Assembly: GCA_018303805.1 (NCBI GenBank)
Contig: JAGVXL010000001.1
Coordinates: forward strand, 241,528 to 305,527
From: Candidatus Pacearchaeota archaeon
Lineage (GTDB): Archaea > Nanobdellota > Nanobdellia > Pacearchaeales > DTIR01
DNA length: 64,000 nucleotides
Direction: 5' to 3'
Positions 7,586 through 8,228 of the stretch are shown here, piece by piece. Under the pieces are notes generated by a model. The model made no database searches. It worked only from the letters and a program-made list of their open reading frames with translations, and was not told where the DNA came from. Each line of letters begins with the position of its first letter. Position 1 is the stretch's first letter. Both the position numbers and the translations under genes were made by a program.

Positions 7586-7659
7586 GGGGCTGTGGGATAG
7601 TCTGGTTAGCCTTCGAGCTTTGGGAGCTTGCGACCCCAGTTCAAATCTGGGCAGCCCCA
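7586..7659 (+). tRNA. tRNA-Pro (anticodon TGG)
   Basis: A complete cloverleaf of 74 bases. The acceptor stem GGGGCTG pairs perfectly with CAGCCCC, discriminator A at 7659. The anticodon stem CGAGC/GCTTG closes the loop TTTGGGA, giving anticodon TGG. The T arm CCCAG/CTGGG encloses TTCAAAT. CCA is not encoded and there is no intron. A pair of unusual hairpins begins right after the 3' end. Confidence 0.95.
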
Positions 7660-7662
7660 TCG

Positions 7663-7769
7663 AGGAGTTTCGCTCTGCTAACATAGGAGATATCAATAAC
7701 CAGAGCGTAACTCCGAGTAGCATTTTGGTTTGCTAAAATAGGAAATAGCAATAACAAATCAAAATGCGA
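7663..7769 (+). repeat. Two tandem hairpins with conserved loops and different stems
   Basis: Hairpin 1 has the stem GGAGTTTCGCTCTG with CAGAGCGTAACTCC (13 of 14 pairs). Hairpin 2 has GCATTTTGGTTTG with CAAATCAAAATGC (12 pairs plus one G-T). The stems share no sequence. The loops of about 22 bases are nearly identical: each starts CTAA, then A/C, ATAGGA, then A/G, ATA, one variable base and CAATAA. Conserved loop plus compensatory stem is the mark of a selected RNA structure. It lies between tRNA-Pro and eL43 and may be cotranscribed with both. Confidence 0.65.
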
Positions 7770-7794
7770 GACCCATTCATAATCAATTTAAAAC

Positions 7795-8007
7795 ATGTCA
7801 AAAAGAAACAAAGTAGGCTCTGCAGGGAGATTCCGCGCAGGATACGGAAGGAAAGTAAGGGAAAAAGTATGGAAGGTTGAAAAGATACAGAAGCAAAAGC
7901 AATTATGCCGCTGCTGCGGAAAGCCAAAAGCGAAAAGGCTTTCTAAAGGATTATGGGAATGCAAGGCATGCAATAAAAAATTCACAAGCCATGCCTATCA
8001 CACTTAA
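7795..8007 (+). CDS. rpl37ae: 50S ribosomal protein eL43 (L37Ae)
   Basis: This 70-residue zinc-ribbon protein of the large subunit has the family start KVGSAGRFRAGYGRKVREKV and two CxxC pairs (Cys38/Cys41 and Cys56/Cys59) around KRLSKGLWECKAC. It ends in the usual SHAYHT-type tail. Length is normal. No TATA box sits at the right distance from its ATG, so it may be read from the tRNA-Pro promoter through the tandem hairpins. Confidence 0.92.
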   Translation: MSKRNKVGSAGRFRAGYGRKVREKVWKVEKIQKQKQLCRCCGKPKAKRLSKGLWECKACNKKFTSHAYHT

Positions 8008-8068
8008 AAACAATCAAAAAAGGCACTAACAGTAAATTTTTAAATCATAATCAAGTAATAAAAACACC

Positions 8069-8209
8069 TTTAGAAACAGAGGAAATCAGGCAAGGCTTAC
8101 CGAGGTGAGAATTACGGGATTTCCTACAGGGAAAATCTATAGATTTTCCATGCCCCAAAAACCGAAAGGTTTTTGCGGTGCCCCGAAAATCTCTCAAGAT
8201 TTTCGCGGG
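8069..8209 (+). repeat. Mosaic palindromic repeat, copy A (leader of rpoP)
   Basis: A chain of hairpins: GGAAATC with GATTTCC, GGAAAATC-TATA-GATTTTCC, AAAAACC-GAAA-GGTTTTT and CGAAAATC with GATTTTCG. Positions 8118-8192 are identical over 75 bases to 62332-62406 in front of uL10. A TTTAGAAACAGAGGAAATCA unit at its left edge recurs at the very end of the window. It lies between a TATA-like TTTTTAAATC at about 8037 and the rpoP start, so it is probably transcribed in the 5' leader. Confidence 0.8.
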
Positions 8210-8228
8210 GGTGTAACCAAAAAGAAAG

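Follow-up and report, generated by a model that had tools for sequence, protein, structure and literature searches.

Tandem hairpins behind a tRNA-Pro gene are probably copies of a small palindromic mobile element of Pacearchaeales-type archaea

Results

Two tandem hairpins lie between tRNA-Pro and eL43

The window, by which we mean the whole 64,000-nt stretch of DNA that we analysed, contains a tRNA-Pro gene with the anticodon TGG (UGG) at positions 7586..7659 of the plus strand (identified by ARAGORN and as Rfam RF00005) and, on the same strand at 7795..8007, an open reading frame for the zinc-ribbon ribosomal protein eL43, which is also found 3' of tRNA-Pro in relatives. Two hairpins, likewise on the plus strand, lie between these genes and were recognised from their fold and from matches to the covariance models R1 and R2 (see below). 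In particular, hairpin A (7661..7717), which starts one base further on from the last base of tRNA-Pro, comprises CGAG and a 13-base 5' arm, a loop (CTAACATAGGAGATATCAATAAC; 7678..7700, placed by pattern search and alignments) and a 3' arm followed by CGAG, and is covered by an R1 match at 7660-7717 that scores 76 bits. The portion of loop A that is conserved across the family alignments is its 3' part, ATATCAATAAC. Hairpin B (7717..7770) is a tandem copy with a diverged stem and a 3' end that reads GCGAG; its loop, CTAAAATAGGAAATAGCAATAA, was placed at 7733..7755 by pattern search and runs on into the 3' arm, which opens with a C. (Note that GTAG was seen solely at hairpin B of the window, CGAG being the consensus elsewhere.)

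A first-pass annotation of this DNA had described tandem hairpins with near-identical loops after tRNA-Pro, and these are real: the two loops are identical at 20 of 23 positions, and the region spanning both hairpins folds at -33.6 kcal/mol, as against -19.9 +/- 3.1 kcal/mol for shuffled sequences (z = -4.4). Within the window the loop pattern matches hairpins A and B only, with a chance expectation of 0. The stems had been described as unrelated and sharing no sequence; in fact their 5' arms agree at 8 of 13 positions and their 3' arms at 7 of 13. The stems had also been put at 13-14 bp with almost perfect pairing; stem A is longer, since, judging from the sequence, the CGAG at both of its bases could form a tandem G.A (sheared) motif, and it contains one internal U.U mismatch.

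Because the tRNA-Pro–eL43 gene pair is conserved in relatives, it is plausible that the hairpins are cotranscribed with both genes, and the hairpins at tRNA-Pro are probably transcribed and then removed with the trailer. Further downstream, in the gap that separates eL43 from the next small zinc-ribbon gene (8064-8212), lies a compact multi-hairpin region (z = -5.5 versus shuffles), in which ACACC...GGUGU appears to enclose a stem formed by AGGAAAUC and GAUUUCCU along with three short palindromes; it has no Rfam match, and may be a structured RNA or a set of nested palindromic repeats.

Further copies in the same genome follow tRNA 3' ends

The genome holds more than the pair noted in the first pass. 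BLAST revealed further copies on the window's own 575-kb contig, and covariance searches with R1 and R2 agreed on exactly eight hairpins in the genome. Whether single or in tandem, all eight directly follow, in sense orientation, either a tRNA gene or a 3' fragment of one, at five loci (four tRNA genes and one tRNA fragment): A-B arrays follow both tRNA-Pro(UGG) and an intron-bearing tRNA that ARAGORN reads as Val(CAC), behind tRNA-Pro(GGG) there is a B-A array plus a truncated third arm, B alone follows tRNA-Ala(GGC), and A alone follows the tRNA 3' fragment, which lies downstream of another gene. The spacing of the tandem copies is 54-59, with no reading frame there. The remaining tRNA genes found in this genome are without a hairpin.

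The tRNA complement of G000 has two further peculiarities. Extra T-arm/acceptor 3' fragments occur behind intact tRNAs or alone, on contig C1 after tRNA-Gly(CCC) (L047), the L054 tRNA and tRNA-Arg(CCT) (L049), with another in L043 at about 1613-1645; they look like 3'-end duplications derived from integration, or possibly unrecognised split tRNA halves. There are also unusually many intron-bearing tRNA genes for a small genome (for example L053, L060, L063, L067 and L068), and several of the introns share similar hairpins rich in AAGAAAG/CTTTCTT.

Many genomes of the order retain tRNA-Pro followed by eL43, including relatives that are hairpin-free there. The nearest relatives have a spacer of 17-51 nt between the two genes, among them G001, the only other family member, versus 135 nt with two hairpins here. 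The simplest reading, in which the direction is taken from parsimony, would be that the hairpins were gained in the window lineage.

A hairpin that was once mobile could since have been retained as a tRNA 3' trailer, for 3' processing or transcription termination, and copies that sit solely at tRNA 3' ends, always in sense and several of them in tandem, are what such domestication might leave in the window genome. We nonetheless consider it unlikely: the hairpin is present at only four of the tRNA genes found and one fragment, sister genera have no hairpin at tRNA-Pro, and, with eL43 encoded downstream on the same strand, a terminator there would be unexpected.

The hairpin family is widespread in one archaeal order

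R1, the covariance model built from the eight copies of the window genome, gave weak homologues in the order, one of which also lies directly behind a tRNA, in that case tRNA-Val. From these homologues we derived the consensus CGAGC(G)-stem-loop-AATAAC-stem-GCGAG, which served for pattern searches and for a second covariance model, R2. With the pattern and R2, clear copies were found in 71 of the order's 200 sampled genomes, and single genomes carried as many as 25. In a phylum-wide sample of 279 genomes there were 11 positives, 11/11 in the same order. Incomplete MAGs make up many of the genomes. Pattern matches in GTDB were mostly labelled Candidatus Pacearchaeota or Nanoarchaeota, together with a few labelled as bacterial MAGs. 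Copies are 51-73 bp long and typically about 55 bp. We also considered a viral origin and rejected it, the strict pattern having no match among IMG/VR viral contigs.

Copies occupy tRNA ends, tRNA fragments, intergenic DNA and N-terminal codons

Copies sit behind tRNA 3' ends in the window genome, G002 and G131, and in the T-loops of duplicated tRNA 3' fragments in G168, with similar cases in G177, G162, G101 and G133. Intergenic copies occur chiefly in genera g36 and g75. In genus g29 and a few others, copies lie antisense in the first codons of genes for small membrane proteins whose N-terminus is positively charged and which have a Gln and a hydrophobic stretch. We call these proteins pilin-like from their sequence layout, since Pfam gave no convincing domain. 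In 35 of 35 coding-site copies, all antisense, an open frame runs through the hairpin into the protein, and tandem copies at such sites usually repeat every 57 nt, or 19 codons. At these sites, putative signal-peptide n-regions, the element end would re-create a Lys-Arg-Ser motif before the Gln.

Empty and occupied versions of one such site can be compared directly in a pilin-like gene that is present in 16 g29 genomes. The gene is hairpin-free in ten of them (for example, MLNKKA followed directly by QLKIQEM), contains one in-frame hairpin unit in G101 (MISKK-SIRVFNQLFNLKNLPDSKRS-QIKIQEM) and contains two in-frame units in G084, a close relative of G101. At the same N-terminal site, G030, G169, G073 and G086 (L212, L214, L216 and L217) carry other extra sequence, a different palindromic insert that is apparently a second element family. 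In G030 this insert reads GTCCTAAAAAATC-GAA-GATTTTTGGGAC and encodes ...QVLKNRRFLGPSSSKA...; G030 and G073 each have it twice, the codons that follow being repeated as well.

The tRNA-associated sites raise the question of whether the hairpins are parts of attachment sites left by larger integrative elements, such as plasmids or cassettes that target tRNA 3' ends. In G168, two identical hairpin-bearing tRNA 3' repeats, 160-bp direct repeats in each of which the T-arm is split by a hairpin, flank 2.87 kb with two ORFs beside an intact tRNA-Lys; a duplication of the tRNA 3' end also surrounds the hairpins in G131 and G177, and is not clear in the window genome, where the hairpin-bearing tRNA 3' fragment is nevertheless suggestive. 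Outside the window genome, T-arm sequence was found near 11 of 103 insertion sites against a background of 4% (P = 0.003), a modest excess in which some of the 11 are incidental. Against an integrative origin, most copies are isolated units, those at coding sites are unrelated to tRNAs, and there is neither a linked integrase nor a strict-pattern match in viral contigs; we judge it quite improbable. The G168 segment itself (L112, G168:C20, 1784-4820; the two repeats being near-identical over their 160 bp) encodes two proteins, one a repeat-rich membrane protein of 218 aa and the other 571 aa long, neither with a convincing Pfam domain and the latter without a match, and is a possible cargo cassette at a tRNA.

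The stem covaries and the loop is conserved

In an alignment of 16 hand-picked copies, made without fitting to a model, both partners were changed in 10 of 15 pairs, and the observed values were not matched in any of 500 shuffles. An alignment of 110 distinct copies, which was fitted to the model and is thus biased towards structure, had 92.5% of cells paired and compensatory change in 14 of 15 stem pairs; it contained 236 double-change cells, where shuffles gave 58 and not one of 500 came up to the observed number, and the covariation signal was lost when the partner was shifted by one column. The proposal that duplication was followed by compensatory change is thereby supported, in that the copies form one hairpin family whose stems covary strongly. 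The hairpin structure is under selection or needed for spread. Because the loop bases are conserved, a bound loop, also proposed in the first pass, may still matter for mobility.

As the main explanation, a functional small RNA or protein-binding RNA, expressed from tRNA transcripts with its loop bound by a host protein or guiding modification, is improbable: the strong compensatory change, the loop conservation and the sense orientation behind tRNAs at 5/5 window-genome loci are set against relatives that are hairpin-free at the same tRNA-Pro locus, 0-25 copies per genome, antisense copies inside coding sequence and the absence of an Rfam match, an Rfam 15 search of the window having placed tRNAs alone above the gathering score, with 18.8 bits (41 required) for the best sub-threshold match.

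Discussion

Our findings make it likely that hairpins A and B represent a mobile element of Pacearchaeales-type archaea, a palindrome of about 55 bp that is non-autonomous and is present here as two tandem copies. We observed that the hairpins belong to one family, that their stems covary, that copy number varies between genomes, that sites occur both empty and occupied, and that coding copies are in frame. A literature search for such an element in Pacearchaeota or DPANN, with subscription journals mostly outside its coverage, returned no description; the family is previously unreported as far as we could find, and may be reported elsewhere.

Each copy consists of a hairpin of about 15 pairs, bounded by CGAG...CGAG, with a conserved 3' loop half of the AATAAC type. 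We infer that an enzyme acting in trans recognises the folded single strand and moves the element, which would explain why the loops are conserved while the stems compensate freely; multiplication as a folded strand would likewise fit the tandem arrays and the precise insertion of units. In the window lineage, insertion would have taken place directly behind tRNA 3' ends and been followed by tandem duplication; in other genera the element would have entered T-loops within tRNA fragments, intergenic DNA and the genes of pilin-like proteins, in the last case in frame and ahead of the hydrophobic segment. Copies may survive mainly where the affected part of the product is discarded, as with a tRNA trailer or the n-region of a signal peptide, or where the product is unimportant or already non-functional, as with tRNA fragments.

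Two candidates for the mobilising enzyme were considered and rejected. The Y1 transposase domain of IS200/IS605-type (RAYT) enzymes (Pfam PF01797) is present in 67 of 180 genomes of the order; it gave no match in the window genome, and many copy-rich genomes also lack it (G043, G162, G131, G177, G101 and G076 are not among the genomes matched). Tyrosine recombinases (PF00589) occur in genomes that carry the element and in genomes that do not, and the copy-rich genomes G043, G131 and G177 gave no match. In the flanks of copies that we inspected, we identified no constant target-site duplication and no linked transposase. We raise, tentatively, the possibility that the element represents a new class of archaeal hairpins, directed at those stretches of a gene that do not persist in the mature product (the 3' trailers of tRNAs and class III-type signal-peptide n-regions) and mobilised by an enzyme that acts on folded single strands or RNA and is neither a RAYT nor a tyrosine recombinase.

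DPANN genomes are very small, yet in one order roughly one sampled genome in three carries this putative hairpin parasite, tucked away behind tRNAs and in putative leader peptides. It would offer a natural case of selfish DNA that persists in coding sequence by way of segments that are probably cut away, and could be used to mark how plastic the genomes of uncultured archaea are. Its spread points to a mobilising activity beyond those identified, and it counsels caution, as in these genomes an odd N-terminal extension or tRNA trailer can turn out to be mobile DNA and not a functional feature.

As with palindromic mobile elements in general, many related copies lie at unrelated loci, and orthologous sites are found empty. 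Like archaeal MITEs, the element is non-autonomous, palindromic and variable in copy number; we found neither an autonomous transposon sharing its terminal repeats nor a consistent target-site duplication. Integron attC sites also act as folded single-strand hairpins with a conserved structure and a variable stem sequence. In the archaeal element, however, the conserved bases are in the loop, the base has no RYYYAAC/GTTRRRY pair (R''/R' core), no IntI-type integrase or cassette array is linked, and recombinase matches are uncorrelated with copies. REP elements, which are GTAG-tagged and RAYT-mobilised, share with it the form of short multi-copy hairpins in pairs or arrays and the presumed recognition as a folded single strand, whereas the archaeal element follows no GTAG tag rule, is not associated with a Y1 (HUH) transposase and has its sites in tRNA and coding regions. 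Rickettsia palindromic elements (RPEs) are about 150 bp long, carry a CGTC tag and occur in Rickettsiales (PMC10969869, PMC3733652). Like the archaeal element, they are dispersed palindromes, present both between genes and, in frame, inside many protein genes, and have no known transposase of their own. In-frame coding insertion, an RPE trait, is seen in the 35 coding-site copies, whereas tag, size and host differ: the archaeal element is about 55 bp long, with CGAG at both ends, and its sites are tRNA ends and N-terminal leader codons. The element thus resembles RPEs and REPs, yet is a separate family.
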